Below, in pieces: positions 3,965-9,132 of a stretch of DNA of 24,562 nt. Each line of letters opens with the position of its first letter. Position 1 is the first letter of the stretch. The DNA is taken from IMG/VR virus record IMGVR_UViG_3300033551_000041, positions 1 to 24,562 of that record; one strand, written 5' to 3'. Below the pieces are notes generated by a model. It had not been told where the DNA came from. It worked only from the letters and a program-made list of their open reading frames with translations, and did not search any database. The DNA comes from a virus. A program made the position numbers and the translations under genes.

Positions 3965-4102
3965 ATTACACCTCAGGATTATTACGATAAATTTTTGGAC
4001 TTATAGAATCAAGAAGGATATTGCTTATGTACACGGAATCTGTTAAGTTAAAAATTTAATTACATTGTTTTTTTGACACATATTAACAACAACGGAGTTA
4101 TA
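3965..4102. promoter_or_regulatory. Divergent control region
   Basis: This AT-rich gap separates the minus-strand regulator from the plus-strand exonuclease. A plausible plus-strand promoter is TTGGAC (3995-4000), 16 bases, GATATT (4017-4022). TTAAA-AA-TTTAA at 4048-4059 is a short inverted repeat that could be an operator. A TTGACA at 4073-4078 has no good -10 at the right distance. No clear minus-strand promoter was found. Confidence 0.4.
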
Positions 4103-4666
4103 TTGACAACACCGAGAGTAACAGAAATTCTTAAATACTTCACTAGTTATGACCAAGTACCAAAAGATATTCTCGAAAAAGCCGCATCCAGAGGCACAAC
4201 AGTCCATTCAATATGCGCTGGAATAGCCAAAGGAGCCTGGATTCCTGAAGGCATGATACAAGAGGACTTACAAGGATATATCAAGTCCTTTAATTTATGG
4301 GCCAAGGCTCAGGTCAGGGAGTTTGTTATAATTGAGGAGCGTTATAGCCATACAGACCTTAACTACAACGGCCAACTGGACTTTGTTGTGACTGGAACTG
4401 ATGGAGAAACCTATCTAGTGGACTTAAAGACATCAGCAAAACCTCAAAAGACTTATTCCCTTCAAATGGCAGCCTACAACGAACTCCTTTTAAACCATGG
4501 CGTCAAGGTTAAAGGTGCTATGCTGGTCTACCTAAACAAAACCGGAGAATTCCCGAACATCGACTATATTGAGGACTTTGAAGATCATTTTGTGACCTTT
4601 AAATGCGCCTTGGTTTGCTGGAAATACTTTAACAAAGGAAAAAAGAATGGCCGAAAAGCAGCTTAA
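4103..4666 (+). CDS. PD-(D/E)XK (RecB/Cas4-like) exonuclease
   Basis: This is a PD-(D/E)XK nuclease of the RecB/Cas4 type. Motifs, numbered from the chosen start: RGTTVH (30-35), an acidic segment IIEER (76-80), NGQLD with D93, DLKTS with D107 and K109 (the D-x-K catalytic pair), and QMAAY (121-125), the Q-x-x-x-Y motif of this branch. It would degrade one strand of a DNA end to feed the annealing protein next to it. The TTG at 4103 is chosen because GGAG lies five bases upstream; another in-frame TTG at 4073 lacks an SD. The gene overlaps the ERF gene by 20 bases, which supports a paired exonuclease/annealase system. All catalytic residues are present. Confidence 0.85.
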   Translation: MTTPRVTEILKYFTSYDQVPKDILEKAASRGTTVHSICAGIAKGAWIPEGMIQEDLQGYIKSFNLWAKAQVREFVIIEERYSHTDLNYNGQLDFVVTGTDGETYLVDLKTSAKPQKTYSLQMAAYNELLLNHGVKVKGAMLVYLNKTGEFPNIDYIEDFEDHFVTFKCALVCWKYFNKGKKNGRKAA

Positions 4667-5258
4667 CATACACCAGAGACTACTAGGAATTATGGCAGAC
4701 ATTGACTACATCCAGAAAGGACCAAAGACCGTAAATGGCCAATACAGATACGCAAGCCACGATCAGGTCACAGCGGCCTTACACCCCTTATTCGTCAAAC
4801 ACGGAGTCTTACCAATCCCTACAACAGAAGACATGAAACAGGAAGGAAATAGGACTTCAATACTCCTTGGTGTGGCTTTTACGAACGTCGACCAACCTCA
4901 AGATCATGTTTATGTACGATTTCCAGGATTCGGCGTAGATCCGGGCGATAAAGGCCCAGGAAAGGCTATCTCCTACGCCTTCAAAATGGCCTGCCTGAAG
5001 ACCTTTTGCCTTGAGACAGGGGAAGACCCAGATCAGGACGCAAAAGCCGTTTATAAGGCCTCAAAATGCCCTGAATTTGATTTGGCTTTACCAGACCATA
5101 TTTCCTGTAATGATCCCAAGTTAAAGGCGTTCTTAAAGTCCAGTGCGGAGATTATGGGGAAAGATATCGAAGACGTGAAAAGGGAGGCTTTAGGGAAAAT
5201 GCCGAAGTTTCTTGAGGCCTTACAGAACTGGAAACCTAAAAAAGGAGAGAAGGAATGA
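4647..5258 (+). CDS. erf: ERF-family single-strand annealing protein
   Basis: ERF proteins form rings on single-stranded DNA and anneal complementary strands, allowing phage DNA to recombine or circularise without host RecA. Conserved features: NGQYRYASHDQV (30-41), LHPLFVKHGV (45-54), GFGVDPGDKGPGKAISYAFK (94-113) and TFCLETGEDPD (119-129). The rest of the C-terminus (residues 140-203) is variable and charged, as expected. Length (203 aa) is typical. ATG 4647 has AAGGA upstream and starts inside the exonuclease gene. The stop shares ATGA with the start of the lipoprotein gene, so all three are probably one transcript. Confidence 0.9.
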   Translation: MAEKQLNIHQRLLGIMADIDYIQKGPKTVNGQYRYASHDQVTAALHPLFVKHGVLPIPTTEDMKQEGNRTSILLGVAFTNVDQPQDHVYVRFPGFGVDPGDKGPGKAISYAFKMACLKTFCLETGEDPDQDAKAVYKASKCPEFDLALPDHISCNDPKLKAFLKSSAEIMGKDIEDVKREALGKMPKFLEALQNWKPKKGEKE

Positions 5259-5458
5259 GACTTGTTAAATTTATAGAGGCAACAGTTGCTTTAGTTCTTT
5301 TATTCTCAACATTATCATTATTGTTTTTTTTAGCCGGATGCACTATATCTTTTCAGAATATATCGACTCATGGAACTGCAACCGACCTAGTAGATGAAAC
5401 CCAAACAGCAAGCCCGAACGTAAGTCCTTCAATGCCAGGAATGATCCCGGTGTTCTAG
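5255..5458 (+). CDS. Small lipoprotein
   Basis: The 67-residue precursor has a positively charged start, a long hydrophobic core (residues 10-25) and a textbook lipobox LAGC (26-29), so signal peptidase II should cut before Cys29 and leave a 38-39-residue lipid-anchored peptide. The mature part (TISFQNISTHGTATDLVDET then a Pro/Ser stretch ending in PGMIPVF) is polar and proline-containing. That is the general shape of small outer-membrane spanin subunits, but also of host-type lipoproteins; the THGTATD...DE...SP pattern reminds me of small lipoproteins of intracellular Gram-negatives, without certainty. It is joined to erf by an ATGA overlap. Confidence 0.75.
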   Translation: MRLVKFIEATVALVLLFSTLSLLFFLAGCTISFQNISTHGTATDLVDETQTASPNVSPSMPGMIPVF

Positions 5459-5471
5459 ATAAGGCTTTACA

Positions 5472-5503
5472 AAAACCTTGAGAGTATGCTAAGGTAAGGT
5501 TTT
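5472..5503. other. Hairpin in the 5459-5516 gap
   Basis: AAAACCTT (5472-5479) pairs with AAGGTTTT (5496-5503) around a 16-base loop. The loop ends in a second AAGGT, so CCTT can pair with either of two AAGG copies. No T tract follows; GGGG of the next SD is seven bases away. A regulatory or processing hairpin upstream of the micro-ORF is more likely than a terminator. Confidence 0.35.
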
Positions 5504-5516
5504 AAAGGGGTTTTAT

Positions 5517-5576
5517 ATGGCGCTTAAAGTTATTTGTATTATTTTATTAGCATTTTTCTGTTACCAGCCGGAGTAA
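5517..5576 (+). CDS. Hydrophobic micro-ORF (19 aa)
   Basis: ATG 5517 has GGGG six bases upstream and reads MALKVICIILLAFFCYQPE before TAA. The peptide is one positive residue followed by a hydrophobic stretch with two cysteines, long enough to lie in a membrane. Its last codons (CCGGAG) carry the SD of the next gene, which starts one base after this stop, so translation is coupled. It may be a real small membrane peptide or a leader that controls the next gene. Such short ORFs arise by chance, but the SD, spacing and coupling argue for translation. Confidence 0.45.
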   Translation: MALKVICIILLAFFCYQPE

Positions 5577-5577
5577 A

Positions 5578-5859
5578 ATGGATTTATCATTGTTTTTTAC
5601 GATTATTGGAACTGGATTAACTGTAGCAGCCTTAGTTATAGGAGCTTTTCTAACCATAAGTTCTTTGTTTTTTGCCAATATGAAGACTTTTGAAGAAAAT
5701 ATAAGATCTGATATGAAATCGTTCGAAGCTCAATCCAAGTCTGATTTAAAGTCTTTTGAAATAGAAATTCGTGGTTGGAAGGAAGAAATCTATAAGGAAA
5801 TGAAGGACTTTCATGGTAGACTTTGCTCTATAGAAGGTCGTGGAAAGGAGGATCGATGA
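5578..5859 (+). CDS. Membrane-anchored coiled-coil protein (93 aa)
   Basis: Residues 4-33 form one strongly hydrophobic membrane segment (MDLSLFFTIIGTGLTVAALV onward). Residues 35-67 are three 11-residue repeats of the form (M/L)K(S/T)FE, two variable positions, then (I/S)(R/K)SD or GW, followed by KEEIYKEMKDF and a short charged end HGRLCSIEGRGKEDR. Together this is a single-pass anchor with a coiled coil, as in inner-membrane spanins or small membrane-tether proteins. The segment 'DFHGRLCSIEGR' looks like an end motif I associate with similar small bacterial membrane proteins. ATG 5578 has GGAG four bases upstream. Its function is unknown. Confidence 0.7.
   Translation: MDLSLFFTIIGTGLTVAALVIGAFLTISSLFFANMKTFEENIRSDMKSFEAQSKSDLKSFEIEIRGWKEEIYKEMKDFHGRLCSIEGRGKEDR
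5680..5778 (+). repeat. Three tandem 33-base units
   Basis: Codons 35-45, 46-56 and 57-67 of the membrane coiled-coil gene encode three related 11-residue units: MKTFEENIRSD, MKSFEAQSKSD and LKSFEIEIRGW. They are diverged at DNA level. The period of 11 is typical of hendecad coiled coils. Confidence 0.7.
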
Positions 5860-6020
5860 TAGAGGTAATTTTAGGAATAGCTTATATATGGCTTTTCAGT
5901 TTAACTCTTGTTCATACTATTATTATCCACTGGCTTCATTCTGACGTATTATCCTTAAAAAGTGAGATACGGAAATTAGAAGATAAGTTTGAAAAAGAAA
6001 CGAAAGTACTTAAGGAATAA
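5856..6020 (+). CDS. Small membrane protein with coiled-coil tail (54 aa)
   Basis: ATG 5856 is chosen because a near-perfect SD (AAAGGAGG) lies five bases upstream and the start shares ATGA with the previous stop; an ATG 33 bases earlier has no such signal. Residues 3-28 (MIEVILGIAYIWLFSLTLVH then TIIIHWL) form a membrane segment, and residues 32-54 are a charged helix (SLKSEIRKLEDKFEKETKVL) able to form a coiled coil. It has the same plan as the 93-aa neighbour in smaller form, so the two may interact. Its function is not known; a spanin- or holin-accessory role is possible. Confidence 0.65.
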   Translation: MIEVILGIAYIWLFSLTLVHTIIIHWLHSDVLSLKSEIRKLEDKFEKETKVLKE

Positions 6021-6021
6021 G

Positions 6022-6084
6022 ATGTTACATTTATTTGTTGGCCTATTAGGTCTGTTAGCTTTCTGGTATTTTCAAGATAATTAA
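6022..6084 (+). CDS. Hydrophobic micro-ORF (20 aa)
   Basis: ATG 6022 follows the previous stop by one base and has AAGGA five bases upstream. It reads MLHLFVGLLGLLAFWYFQDN and then TAA. The Gly/Leu-rich core (residues 3-17) would span a membrane. The next gene starts nine bases after the stop, with its SD (AAGGAG) just beyond this TAA. This is the second hydrophobic micro-ORF in the cassette; both have proper SDs and sit in otherwise unexplained gaps, which makes translation more credible than for either alone. Confidence 0.5.
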   Translation: MLHLFVGLLGLLAFWYFQDN

Positions 6085-6092
6085 GGAGAAGA

Positions 6093-6323
6093 ATGCGTAA
6101 GATATTTGTTTTATTAGGTCTTTTGGCCTCTTCAACGTGTTTTTCGGACTATGATGACATAAAAAAAGAACTTGTAGAAAAGCTCCAGATGTACGAAAAC
6201 CTCCGGGACAATGAACGGTCTCTCTACGGGCAATGGTACTTAGGCGGAGTAATTACTGGCCTGGAAAATGCCTTGTTCATTATTCATACTGATCAAGATG
6301 CAATGGACTACGTAAAAGACTAG
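6093..6323 (+). CDS. Small secreted protein with signal peptide (76 aa)
   Basis: ATG 6093 has AAGGAG upstream. Residues 1-18 (MRKIFVLLGLLASSTCFS) form a signal peptide: basic start, hydrophobic core and small residues. There is no lipobox, so signal peptidase I cleavage before DYDD is likely. The mature part is an acidic helical domain with Y-D-D-x-K-x-E-L near its start and a segment GQWYLGGVITGLENALFII (46-64). The same pattern returns in the protein at 6408-6815, so the two seem related. I know no family. It should act in the periplasm or outside the cell, in host interaction or lysis. Confidence 0.65.
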   Translation: MRKIFVLLGLLASSTCFSDYDDIKKELVEKLQMYENLRDNERSLYGQWYLGGVITGLENALFIIHTDQDAMDYVKD

Positions 6324-6352
6324 TCATGCCTTAAATAAGGTCTCTTTTGGGG

Positions 6353-6381
6353 TTGTTGCTGAAAGGAATATCTCTTATAAC
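6353..6381 (+). promoter_or_regulatory. Sigma70-type promoter
   Basis: TTGTTG (6353-6358), a 17-base spacer and TATAAC (6376-6381; five of six match the -10 consensus). It lies 27 bases before the start of the 135-aa secreted protein, in an 84-base gap, so this gene can be expressed apart from the rest of the operon. Confidence 0.45.
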
Positions 6382-6407
6382 TCAGTAAACACCCTAATGG
6401 AGGTCTT

Positions 6408-6815
6408 ATGAAACTATATCAACTTGCTTTATCCTGTTGTTTGTTTCTTTCTGCACCTATTTTAGGTTACTACGAAGAGGCTAAACAGGAGATTAGAGAC
6501 CTTAAAACGGAAGCAACCTGGAGGTCTATGCTAATTGGTTACGATGCCTATTACTGCACCGGACAAGTAGAGGCTTACAGAAAGGCCTTATTAGTGATAA
6601 ACATCTGGGAACGCCGATATAAGCCTAAAAAACCACCAAAATCAGCAATGAAAGAATACCTCCTGGTGTTGATGTCTATTTCAAACCAAGAGGCGGATGA
6701 GGGATTTACAGCGGTAGAGGAATCTTGGACCAGTCAAGGCTTTAGATCTGCCCTACAACACTCGATTTCGATCATAGATGGCAAGCCTTTTGTCCAAGAC
6801 GGCCTTTTTCATTAG
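6408..6815 (+). CDS. Secreted protein with two related halves (135 aa)
   Basis: ATG 6408 has GGAGG five bases upstream. Residues 1-20 (MKLYQLALSCCLFLSAPILG) are a signal peptide. The mature N-terminal half has Y-E-E-x-K-x-E-I, then YYCTGQVEAYRKALLVI, matching the pattern of the 76-aa secreted neighbour. The C-terminal half repeats it more loosely: EADEGFTAVEESWTSQGFRS then ALQHSISII. The protein may therefore be a duplicated form of its neighbour's domain. No enzyme motif is seen. Its TAG overlaps the stop of the minus-strand DUF6496-like gene by four bases. A role in the periplasm or host surface is inferred only from secretion. Confidence 0.65.
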   Translation: MKLYQLALSCCLFLSAPILGYYEEAKQEIRDLKTEATWRSMLIGYDAYYCTGQVEAYRKALLVINIWERRYKPKKPPKSAMKEYLLVLMSISNQEADEGFTAVEESWTSQGFRSALQHSISIIDGKPFVQDGLFH

Positions 6816-6964
6816 GCCTTCTTAGCCTTTTTGGCCTCACTATACCCTATTGCTACTGCCTGTTTAGGGTTCGTAACGATAGGGCCTTTTTTTGACCCTG
6901 AATGGAGTTCGCCTTTACTAAATTCCTTCATTACTTTCGATATCTTTTTCTCTTTTCCTTTCAT
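6812..6964 (-). CDS. DUF6496-like small basic protein (50 aa)
   Basis: ATG 6964 has AGGG six bases upstream. The 50 residues contain VMKEFSKGELHSGSKKGPIV (11-30) and TNPKQAVAIGYSEAKKAKKA (31-50). The order 'MKEF..G.LHSGSKKGP.VTNPKQA.AI..SEA.KA' is that of a short conserved family found in phages and bacteria (DUF6496 by my recollection), of unknown function, probably DNA- or RNA-binding given its many lysines. It lies 13 bases downstream of the C1q-like fibre gene and is the last gene of the late operon. It meets the plus-strand secreted gene tail to tail, with both stop codons inside TTAG. Confidence 0.75.
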   Translation of the reverse strand: MKGKEKKISKVMKEFSKGELHSGSKKGPIVTNPKQAVAIGYSEAKKAKKA

Positions 6965-6977
6965 TGAATCCCTTATT

Positions 6978-7472
6978 TTAGTTACACATCTTCATTATTT
7001 CTATATATCCAAACAATCCGAAAAATTCACCGCTCAATCCGACTGTCTTAGCTCCGTTTCCTACAGCTCCAGATACATATATTGTCAATCCAGCAGTTGC
7101 GTCAATGATAGTAAAGTCATTAACATGGTAATGGTTATCTGAAGTTCTCGCAACACCAGGATTAAAAAGCTGTTTTGTGGCCGCTCCTGCACTTGTTTCT
7201 ATGTTGAACTGTGCAAATGTATGAGCTGCTGAAAGACCGTCAAATGTTAAGGCATATGCGACGAGATATTTTCCGTCTGAAGGAACTGTAAAAATCCCCG
7301 TAGAGTTATCCATGTTGTTTCCGCCGACCTGCCATGTGGTATTATCCCAAACCACAGTAAATGCAGTACCATCTCCAGTTAGATTAGGTTGGTTGGCTGC
7401 AATGAAACTTTGTACTCCGATTGATCCGGTTGTAGCTCCAGCCGGCATTCCAGCTATTCCTGCTTGACTCAT
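6978..7472 (-). CDS. C1q-like tail tip / receptor-binding protein
   Basis: The start is set at ATG 7472 because AGGAG lies five bases upstream and the previous gene ends at 7481; a longer frame back to 7502 has no such signal. After a Gly/Ala-rich N-terminus, residues 28-160 look like a C1q/TNF-type jelly roll: FTVVWDNTTWQ, NSTGIFTVPSDGKYLVAYAL, AQFNIETSAGA, DFTIIDATAGLTIYVSG and FFGLFGYIEI. Trimeric domains of this fold occur at the distal ends of phage fibres and bind receptors. It closes the fibre gene block, which fits a host-recognition tip. Assignment is from the strand pattern and the FTVPxDGxY signature. Confidence 0.7.
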   Translation of the reverse strand: MSQAGIAGMPAGATTGSIGVQSFIAANQPNLTGDGTAFTVVWDNTTWQVGGNNMDNSTGIFTVPSDGKYLVAYALTFDGLSAAHTFAQFNIETSAGAATKQLFNPGVARTSDNHYHVNDFTIIDATAGLTIYVSGAVGNGAKTVGLSGEFFGLFGYIEIMKMCN

Positions 7473-7480
7473 GATTGCTC

Positions 7481-7816
7481 CTATGTTGCTGACGATATAC
7501 ATTCGAGATAAATTGCTCCGGAAGTAGGAGCTGTTGATTGTTTGACTGAGAATTGAGTCCCTATAGCCAACACCAAATTATCCGTCACTGCAATGGGTGG
7601 GGAGTTGGTCGAAAGGTCATATAAAGTAAACGATCCAGCAGGAAGAAAAATGTGGTCGTTGGTTCCATCTAAGCTTGCGATAAGGTCGCCATCTGTGTTG
7701 TTAGTGAGCTTAAATATTCTGGTGTTTGTGGTTAAGGCCGAACCAAGGGGTGCATAAGACCCTGAAATCCCCCCGAATGCTAGAGACCTTAATGTGTCGA
7801 AATGTGCTACTGCCAT
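7481..7816 (-). CDS. Small virion protein, fibre-region (111 aa)
   Basis: The protein is beta-rich with no charged linker. It begins MAVAHFDTLRSLAFGGISGS and continues with alternating strands, including NNTDGDLIASLDGTNDHIFL, AGSFTLYDLSTN and LAIGTQFSVKQSTAPTSGAIY. This resembles a small protein seen near the tail-fibre genes of other podoviruses, whose role is not established; an adaptor or fibre-capping protein is likely. ATG 7816 has AGGA five bases upstream, within the end of the previous fibre gene. It lies between the fibre proteins and the C1q-like tip protein. Confidence 0.6.
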   Translation of the reverse strand: MAVAHFDTLRSLAFGGISGSYAPLGSALTTNTRIFKLTNNTDGDLIASLDGTNDHIFLPAGSFTLYDLSTNSPPIAVTDNLVLAIGTQFSVKQSTAPTSGAIYLECISSAT

Positions 7817-7823
7817 GTTAATC

Positions 7824-8675
7824 CTATTGTAAAAGTCCGTAATTTCTTAAGGCTGCTATAGTCCCTTGTAAGGCTAAAGCAAGTTGATAAATGTCGTTTC
7901 TAATGGTTGCTGCGTCTGCGACATATGAGGCTCCAGCGAAGTCCGCAATAACACCAGCAGACCCCCCGGAAGTTACGTTGTTGGTTAGCGCCCCTTGTGA
8001 TTGAACGCTTGCAGGAGTCGTGTTAAAAAATCCTATTTGAGCGGACTGTCCTCCAATACGTAGTTGATGCGCAGCCCCTGCTCCAGTCCCTAAACGGATT
8101 GTTCCTGGATTAGTTGACCCGGAGTTTGAGAAGACATGAAAATTTTGTGTTCCACCTGATATATTCCCGAAAGAGAAAAAATTTACAGTCTGAGTTCCAC
8201 CCACAATAGACCCAGGAAAGTAGTTATGGGTATGTGTGCCTGAAACAATATCCCCACCATTAACAACAAAGGCTGTATCATTGGTCGGAGCAGTCCCTGT
8301 TAAAACCCCGACTGAAGTTAAAGCTCCAAGATGATTTCCTCTTGCGATATTTATATTTCTAGTGATATTCGACGCAGAAGCCCCTATGTTAATAGTAGTA
8401 ACATCTACGCCAGAACCAATATCGACGTTCCCTGTTGAGTTTAAAGTAGTTGCATTAACCTCATTAGGTGCGACATCCCCTATAGGAGGAGGTGAAGATA
8501 GGTTAGTTACAAAGGAATTACTAAAAGTTTGAGGAGAGACATAACAAAAGTCCTTAGAGCCTTCATCCACCTCCTCTTCAGTTGCAGCCCTTACGGTATT
8601 GTTGGTCGTGAAAGGCTTACCTGTTACTTGAGGCTGATAACCTGTATAAGCTAAAGGATTAGAATAAAGGCCCAT
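7824..8675 (-). CDS. Tail fibre with shared N-terminal anchor
   Basis: Residues 1-50 (MGLYSNPLAYTGYQPQVTGK, then TTNNTVRAATEEE and YVSPQ) match the N-terminus of the next upstream fibre gene, so this is probably the part that docks on the virion. Next come fibre-like repeats with TTINIGASASNITRNINIA, three tandem 14-15-residue units (143-186, IVSGTHTHNYFPGS and relatives), then glycine/serine-rich strands. The last 30 residues (DAATIRNDIYQLALALQGTI onward) form a heptad helix, likely a trimerisation end. ATG 8675 has GGGGG upstream. No enzymatic motif is seen. Its length (283 aa) suits a short fibre. Confidence 0.75.
   Translation of the reverse strand: MGLYSNPLAYTGYQPQVTGKPFTTNNTVRAATEEEVDEGSKDFCYVSPQTFSNSFVTNLSSPPPIGDVAPNEVNATTLNSTGNVDIGSGVDVTTINIGASASNITRNINIARGNHLGALTSVGVLTGTAPTNDTAFVVNGGDIVSGTHTHNYFPGSIVGGTQTVNFFSFGNISGGTQNFHVFSNSGSTNPGTIRLGTGAGAAHQLRIGGQSAQIGFFNTTPASVQSQGALTNNVTSGGSAGVIADFAGASYVADAATIRNDIYQLALALQGTIAALRNYGLLQ
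8118..8249 (-). repeat. Three 14-15-residue fibre repeats
   Basis: Codons 143-156, 157-171 and 172-186 of the fibre gene encode IVSGTHTHNYFPGS, IVGGTQTVNFFSFGN and ISGGTQNFHVFSNSG. Each unit has I-x-G-G-T-(H/Q) followed by an aromatic strand, as in triple-stranded beta fibres. Confidence 0.6.
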
Positions 8676-8682
8676 ATTCCCC

Positions 8683-9132
8683 CTAGTTATAGATCTCGTA
8701 GTTAATGATCACGTTGGCTGCTGTATTGGCCGATCCTGCGTTGTAGAGCCTAAAAGTAACTGTTCCTGATCCTGGAGTAATAGCTGAAACGACCAGGGCT
8801 GTGTTGGTAGTAGCACAGGAAGCAACGGCCTGGATAACCGAACTAGATGTGATAAGGCTATTGGTCATAACGTAGTTCCCGTAAGCAGTTGTATTAACTA
8901 CGTTCGTGAAACTTACCTGACCTCTACGGCTGTTGTTGACCAAAGGAGTCGCTCCGGCAACAGATGGTGCTAAGGACGCTCCGGCTGCTTCTGCTGGCGT
9001 GATATAAACGTTGGTCTTTACTCCAGCTAAGGCTTCGGCTGCTGTTGCTGCTCTTACTGTTGAGTTGGTGTTGTTTGCCTTGCCGTTTGCTCCTGGTGGA
9101 TATCCGGCGTAGCTAATTGGGTTATTGAACAT
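8683..9132 (-). CDS. Paralogous short fibre/virion protein (149 aa)
   Basis: The first 50 residues (MFNNPISYAGYPPGANGKAN then NTNSTVRAATAAE and VYITPAEA) correspond to those of the 283-aa fibre next to it, while the rest differ: a linker ending in PLVNNSRRGQVSFTNVV, then a beta sandwich-like part (VVSAITPGSGTVTFRLYN and ANVIINYEIYN). It therefore looks like a second protein using the same virion anchor with another outer domain. ATG 9132 has AAGGAG six bases upstream. It could be a second receptor-binding or decoration fibre. The fold of the C-terminal domain is not identified. Confidence 0.7.
   Translation of the reverse strand: MFNNPISYAGYPPGANGKANNTNSTVRAATAAEALAGVKTNVYITPAEAAGASLAPSVAGATPLVNNSRRGQVSFTNVVNTTAYGNYVMTNSLITSSSVIQAVASCATTNTALVVSAITPGSGTVTFRLYNAGSANTAANVIINYEIYN

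Follow-up and report, generated by a model that had tools for sequence, protein, structure and literature searches.

A cassette of predicted membrane and exported proteins at the junction of the recombination operon and the tail-fibre block in an uncultured podovirus-like phage

Introduction

Why should a phage place a series of small membrane and exported proteins directly behind its recombination genes? The question is raised by a 24,562-base fragment from IMG/VR (record IMGVR_UViG_3300033551_000041; this whole stretch is called the window below), in which an exonuclease and an ERF-family single-strand annealing protein are followed, in the same direction, by a lipoprotein, a micro-open reading frame (micro-ORF), two membrane-anchored coiled coils, a second micro-ORF and two secreted proteins (Table 1). 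All seven genes had been described in an earlier note on the window, and all are present. That note had proposed either a lysis cassette, with an outer- and inner-membrane spanin pair (o-/i-spanin), or an alteration of the host envelope through superinfection exclusion or lysogenic conversion.

The cassette sits at the point where the tail-fibre block meets the early recombination operon head-on. It joins two recurrent modules, a lipoprotein slot coupled to ERF and an inner-membrane coiled-coil unit with hydrophobic micro-peptides, and two secreted proteins come after them. The explanation that we put first, tentatively and with somewhat less than even confidence, is that it represents envelope-modifying cargo (a moron-like island), which would most likely act in superinfection exclusion.

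Results

A conserved lipoprotein slot with exchanged occupants

The gene plan of the window is kept in 20 relatives, read whole or nearly whole with greedy ORF picks as gene calls: a rightward exonuclease-ERF operon converges on a leftward virion cluster. Of 25 ERF loci, 13 have a lipoprotein ORF that begins at the stop codon of ERF, usually with an ATGA overlap; among 673 control positions, located behind other conserved genes, there is 1 such case (Fisher p=5e-20). One of the 13 calls (G047) is doubtful, the real LIPO-A of that genome lying two genes further on. The occupant in the window belongs to the LIPO-A family, for which a profile search found 16 members among the fetched phage loci. 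Elsewhere the slot holds LIPO-B or, in G017/L100, G012 and L091, other short lipoproteins that are unmatched by the LIPO-A profile, and no mutual similarity was detected among the families sharing the slot. The position at the ERF stop is thus conserved, while the lipoprotein that fills it is exchanged. A LIPO-A homologue used as query gave no match in cultured phages. In other phages (L244:5072-5432 and L178:2502-2881), LIPO-A adjoins a small membrane protein with the C-terminus DNPIEE...TG-(I/V)-K-(I/V)-D-(I/L)-TP, and the two could form a recurrent pair.

The FHGRL coiled-coil family

The first anchored coiled coil, the product of the gene at 5578, belongs to FHGRL, a large family of short proteins defined by an N-terminal membrane segment, a coiled coil and a C-terminal KDFHGRLC-x-IEER. 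It aligns with its homologues and fits the family definition at the C-terminus (E-x-K-D-F-H-G-R-L-C-x-I/L-E-E/G-R). K-D-F-H-G-R-L-C is invariant in the family alignment (A7), whose members were largely picked by that motif. The KDFHGRLC-x-IEER pattern is found in at least 119 viral stretches, nearly all of which translate to proteins of this architecture; pattern matches in Accumulibacter and Desulfobulbaceae contigs were rejected as chance frames of unrelated ORFs. Neither the FHGRL consensus nor a protein of cluster 62, a related family of transmembrane coiled coils, gave a tblastn match in 50,697 phage records. The consensus was also without a match in plasmids, and searches of cultured phages found no cultured relatives of the cassette genes. 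A weak match exists to phrog_1009 (function unassigned), a short protein that can be aligned over the full length of the FHGRL consensus (E=3.5e-4), as well as with cluster 62 (E=1.2e-3). FHGRL is an abundant, previously undescribed membrane-protein family.

No lysine or arginine is present in the N-tail of 91% of 120 FHGRL homologues, and 2.7 such residues follow within 15 residues after the membrane segment; an N-out/C-in orientation is predicted for the family because of this distribution. Both anchored coiled coils of the window (5578 and 5856) are likewise predicted to be N-out/C-in, having no lysine or arginine before the membrane segment and 3 and 2, respectively, after it. Signal-peptide and topology calls were made throughout by simple hydropathy and charge rules.

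A coupled hydrophobic ORF lies directly downstream of 62 of 129 FHGRL homologues and of 29 of 660 control genes, and one of at most 35 amino acids downstream of 18/129 and 10/660, respectively. The second coiled coil and the second micro-ORF of the window conform to this pattern. Since FHGRL homologues often have such an ORF downstream, more commonly than the controls, the micro-ORFs of the cassette are credible as putative genes.

In other genomes the FHGRL unit mostly runs antisense in the gap that separates tail fibre from pilot genes, or else follows the integrase; its genes and the virion genes are on opposite strands, and in most relatives the unit is away from ERF. Between 0 and 8 copies were detected per genome. 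The coiled-coil genes are dispensable: they are missing from the closed genomes G004 and G012, and also from the possibly incomplete G017. Comparison of gene order in other phages, which the earlier note had recommended, thus bears out its attachment of the cassette to a recombination operon for the lipoprotein slot, but not for the coiled-coil unit. In one relative (L018 / G005 35856-37600), seven small membrane coiled-coil genes (four FHGRL, two cluster 62, one cluster 51) stand in tandem, antisense beside tail-fibre genes.

Cargo at the junction with the tail fibres

The cassette runs head-on into a DUF6496 gene, beyond which lies the leftward tail-fibre block; tail-fibre families PF21882/phrog_1396 were matched among block and virion genes. 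In relatives, this junction hosts most of the convincing exported non-structural proteins of 110–520 amino acids flagged by script: an exported SGNH-type hydrolase in G005, an exported DXD glycosyltransferase and a membrane protein of Band-7-like sequence in G018, a 494-amino-acid exported protein in G004, and in G047 a pair of exported proteins of collagen-like or repeat type (few cases, with Pfam families reported for the whole set and assigned to individual proteins by their sequence). Closed genome G012 encodes a 185-amino-acid exported protein resembling an outer-membrane beta-barrel (L128:5116-5670); Surface_Ag_2/OMP_b-brl was matched in the scanned set.

The slot is variable and lies against tail-fibre genes, and in relatives its content changes to other lipoproteins, an SGNH hydrolase or a glycosyltransferase that is exported. 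Envelope alteration is therefore a better fit than lysis; the function itself we infer.

Anatomy of the cassette

The earlier note had called six of the seven products clearly membrane or exported, and by the hydropathy rules all seven are. A Shine-Dalgarno-like sequence precedes all seven starts, that at 6022 being weak (six starts were computed and the 5517 start was read by eye), and ATGA overlaps are found at the ERF/lipoprotein and coiled-coil/coiled-coil junctions.

Table 1. Genes of the cassette and their neighbours (window positions)
Feature	Position	Strand	Evidence and remarks
PD-(D/E)XK exonuclease	4073..4666	+	PF12705 E=3.4e-7; phrog_298 exonuclease E=2.4e-22
ERF-family single-strand annealing protein	4647..5258	+	PF04404 E=1.6e-16; phrog_155 E=3.2e-25
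Small lipoprotein LIPO-A	5255..5458	+	Lipobox LAGC, core CTISFQNISTHGTATDLVD; start overlaps ERF stop (ATGA)
Putative micro-ORF MALKVICIILLAFFCYQPE, 19 amino acids, hydrophobic	5517..5576	+	Stop 1 nt before next start; predicted from sequence and recurrent pattern
Membrane-anchored coiled coil, FHGRL family, ends KDFHGRLCSIEGR	5578..5859	+	Family alignment and occurrence; predicted N-out/C-in by charge
Second, smaller membrane-anchored coiled coil, 54 amino acids from ATG 5856	5856..6020	+	ATGA overlap with 5578 gene; predicted N-out/C-in
Putative micro-ORF MLHLFVGLLGLLAFWYFQDN, 20 amino acids, hydrophobic	6022..6084	+	Start 1 nt past previous stop; pattern in relatives
Secreted protein, 76 amino acids, signal peptide and ~58 amino acids	6093..6323	+	Signal-peptide rule
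Secreted protein, 135 amino acids, signal peptide, possibly all-helical	6408..6815	+	Signal-peptide rule
DUF6496 protein, convergent	6812..6964	-	PF20106 E=6.8e-10; overlaps cassette end by 4 nt
Tail-fibre block facing the cassette: C1q-like, 111-, 283- and 149-amino-acid proteins	6978..9132	-	phrog_4978 tail protein E=0.0016; phrog_25122; gene maps

The 6093 product has no family match in Pfam or PHROG, and the 6408 product no relatives beyond the same virus. The similarity of the 6093 product to small secreted proteins of relatives is not significant. Homology of the window's secreted proteins with those of relatives, and a paralogous origin of the two, are both plausible by eye; neither similarity is significant and neither is claimed, E-values from the seeded profile being circular for this set. 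The AlphaFold2 model of the 135-amino-acid protein is poor (mean predicted local distance difference test score, pLDDT, 45) and unusable.

The closed genome and its relatives

The virus of the window is also present as a 39,759-base contig, IMGVR_UViG_3300038441_001120, which agrees at 100% with the 135-amino-acid product and with the opening 4,000 bases of the window (window position p is contig position p+14952). An 88-base overlap of its two ends, with a single mismatch, shows this contig to be closed or very nearly so. The window was accordingly rejected as a complete genome, being a 24.6-kb piece of this contig. Pfam and PHROG profile searches identify a P22-type portal, coat and tail proteins and a terminase in the closed genome, which also encodes DnaB, RusA, ERF, an integrase, ParA, ParB, an RNA ligase, a GroES-like protein and a metallophosphoesterase. 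With integrase, ParA and ParB-like genes and no recognisable endolysin, the 39.76-kb contig (G001) is possibly a phage-plasmid. A 58-amino-acid piece at L004:3848-4021 matches the C-terminus of RtcB, a tRNA-splicing ligase (phrog_1075 E=1.1e-8), of which the relatives' copies have ~390 amino acids; it is a gene remnant in this phage. The coat protein as query matched at least 80 contigs, most of the complete ones being near 40 kb, and identity to cultured relatives is below 60%.

Search for lysis genes

With a closed contig available, the main doubt of the earlier note, whether a lysis module lies elsewhere, could be tested. No peptidoglycan hydrolase (endolysin), holin or spanin family passes in Pfam or PHROG searches of the closed genome (for the leftward 15 kb, the Pfam list is complete and the PHROG list holds the best 25 families, beyond which a weak lysis match is possible). 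The lack of an endolysin or clear holin seen in the window thus extends to the closed genome, and no full lysis module with its own spanins was recognised there. Nor is there a muralytic Pfam family among 128 further cluster representatives and singletons from the 20 relatives (one list: best 25 of 34 families).

The cassette resembles two-component spanins such as lambda Rz/Rz1 in that a small lipoprotein, here with lipobox LAGC, and small membrane-anchored coiled coils are encoded close together. The lipoprotein gene lies upstream of the coiled coil with 119 nt and a micro-ORF between; the genes are neither embedded nor overlapping, and no endolysin is recognised nearby or anywhere. In Rz, the i-spanin, the orientation is N-in/C-out and the coiled coil lies in the periplasm (PMC6139136). 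Since the charge rule predicts the opposite orientation for the coiled coils of the window, an i-spanin role is not supported. Profile scores are also weak: the 5856 product matches the Rz-like spanin family phrog_739 only at E=0.1, the coiled coils have no Pfam holin match (phrog_1296 E=0.14, cluster 62 only), and the faint spanin and holin PHROG matches overall range from E=0.03 to 0.14. On predicted topology, dispensability in closed relatives and weak scores, we reject the spanin-type lysis cassette that the earlier note had considered.

Host

Among 234 Chlamydiota genomes the FHGRL profile has matches in 7, and among 1,041 controls in 1 (p=4e-5); the contrast is somewhat inflated, some Chlamydiota seeds having been found by the same motif. 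The controls comprise 385 Alphaproteobacteria (1 match, the seed itself), 321 genomes of Accumulibacter's class and 335 of the phylum of a Bacteroidales genome (0 matches each). A scan for the coat protein in named genomes confirmed none; a later profile search did find coats in Chlamydiota (9/234), several on stand-alone 35-41 kb contigs, and in 3 of 385 Alphaproteobacteria. One of these three is on a 35.9-kb contig (L334, G299:C6) of a 1.9 Mb alphaproteobacterial genome, with a related coat protein (E=1e-56), and the phage group may reach beyond Chlamydiota. Lone FHGRL genes with no phage genes around them are found on chlamydial contigs at L164:1607-1951 and L328:10017-10328 (G129:C5), and one lone chlamydial copy adjoins rpe, efp, accB and accC. 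Another contig of a Chlamydiota metagenome-assembled genome carries tandem small membrane coiled-coil genes beside a 1343-amino-acid protein (L329:2242-3478, G129:C97). Because binning errors are possible, Chlamydiota are the probable rather than the proven host.

Discussion

If the cassette is envelope-modifying cargo, LIPO-A and the secreted proteins would be made early, together with ERF, and the lipoprotein would be placed on the periplasmic side of the outer membrane. Lipoprotein and secreted proteins could then alter or block a surface structure recognised by the adjacent tail fibres, while the inner-membrane coiled coils, whose conserved KDFHGRLC tail would face the cytoplasm, may guard a later entry step. 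Superinfecting phages would be excluded or the host surface converted. The lone FHGRL copies on chlamydial contigs L164 and G129:C5 are as expected of cargo.

Precedents exist for parts of this arrangement. Temperate P22-like phages carry variable, envelope-directed moron or conversion genes beside their tail-fibre genes. Like them, the cassette is variable envelope-directed cargo adjoining tail-fibre genes; it differs in that most of its products are very small membrane proteins from families not described before, and in that its phages are linked to Chlamydiota. The nearest working analogy for the lipoprotein, offered as an analogy only, is Llp of phage T5, a small superinfection-exclusion lipoprotein whose gene is adjacent to and downstream of the gene for the receptor-binding protein pb5 (PMC9586334). 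LIPO-A is alike in being small, with a signal peptide and the lipobox LAGC. However, it does not join Llp and Cor on sequence, it is coupled to ERF, and its mature form in the window has no further cysteine, whereas Llp and Cor carry an intramolecular disulphide. Exclusion by LIPO-A is a candidate role, suggested by analogy.

Several points weigh against this proposal. None of the known exclusion proteins is matched in sequence: Cor (phrog_1119) was reached by a LIPO-A homologue at E=0.083, over the signal peptide only. The cassette has no match in the PADLOC defence-system library. The slot is not filled in all relatives, 12 of 25 loci being negative by script, although in G004 and G015 a lipoprotein lies a little further on. 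The cassette converges on its tail-fibre block, where any receptor-binding role is putative. Lipoproteins with coupled start codons would also suit an o-spanin or a housekeeping role. Early expression with ERF, localisation, topology and an exclusion or surface function are all things that we infer.

The main rival, and the more interesting one if true, is lysis of an unconventional kind, in which a host with little or no murein needs no endolysin and small holin-like membrane proteins disrupt the envelope together with an outer-membrane lipoprotein. We consider this unlikely, yet it would accord with the absence of recognised lysis genes from the closed genome and of peptidoglycan hydrolases from the 128-representative sample, with the architecture of lipoprotein plus membrane coiled coil, with the faint spanin and holin matches, and with coupled pairs of small membrane proteins that recall holin/antiholin pairs. 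A lysis device is less easily reconciled with coiled-coil genes that are missing from G004, G012 and G017, with FHGRL genes that vary in position, copy number and company, with a predicted topology opposite to that of i-spanins, and with the coupling of the cassette to an early-type gene.

An improbable reading, of about the same standing, is envelope conversion that benefits the carrier cell or its intracellular life, through a change of surface, adhesion or interaction with a eukaryotic host, rather than phage exclusion. The integrase, ParA and ParB genes suggest that the phage may persist, relatives carry surface-type cargo (glycosyltransferase, SGNH hydrolase, outer-membrane beta-barrels), and the lone chromosomal FHGRL copies in Chlamydiota would fit. 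No effector-like or adhesin domain, however, is found by Pfam or PHROG in the five larger products of the window, the coupling with ERF points to a role while the phage grows lytically, when the genes would be expressed, and receptor linkage better explains the proximity of tail fibres.

Less probable again is support of host takeover or replication, in which the coiled coils would anchor phage complexes for replication, recombination or packaging to the membrane. This would explain the translational coupling with ERF, and the conserved, predicted cytoplasmic KDFHGRLC tail could dock a protein; yet in most cases the coiled-coil unit lies away from ERF, and it is not obvious what lipoproteins and secreted proteins would contribute to such a function. 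That the ORFs are spurious or decaying remnants between convergent operons, as the two micro-ORFs and the secreted proteins without significant relatives might suggest, is very improbable in view of the Shine-Dalgarno-like sequences at all seven ORFs, the ATGA couplings and the strong LIPO-A and FHGRL families.

No tailed phage of Chlamydiota is described in the open-access literature searched, and the Chlamydiota phages known to us are all single-stranded DNA microviruses. It is conceivable, though unlikely, that Chlamydiota, and possibly further intracellular bacteria, are infected by widespread uncultured podovirus-like phages of ~40 kb that have no recognisable endolysin and whose KDFHGRLC proteins and micro-peptides constitute a new membrane-based device for superinfection exclusion or endolysin-free lysis. 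The lipoprotein slot tied to ERF and the abundant, unnamed membrane family beside the tail fibres offer starting points for learning how such phages cope with an unusual envelope, and the way in which a phage lacking a recognisable endolysin leaves a host with little murein can now be put to the test.

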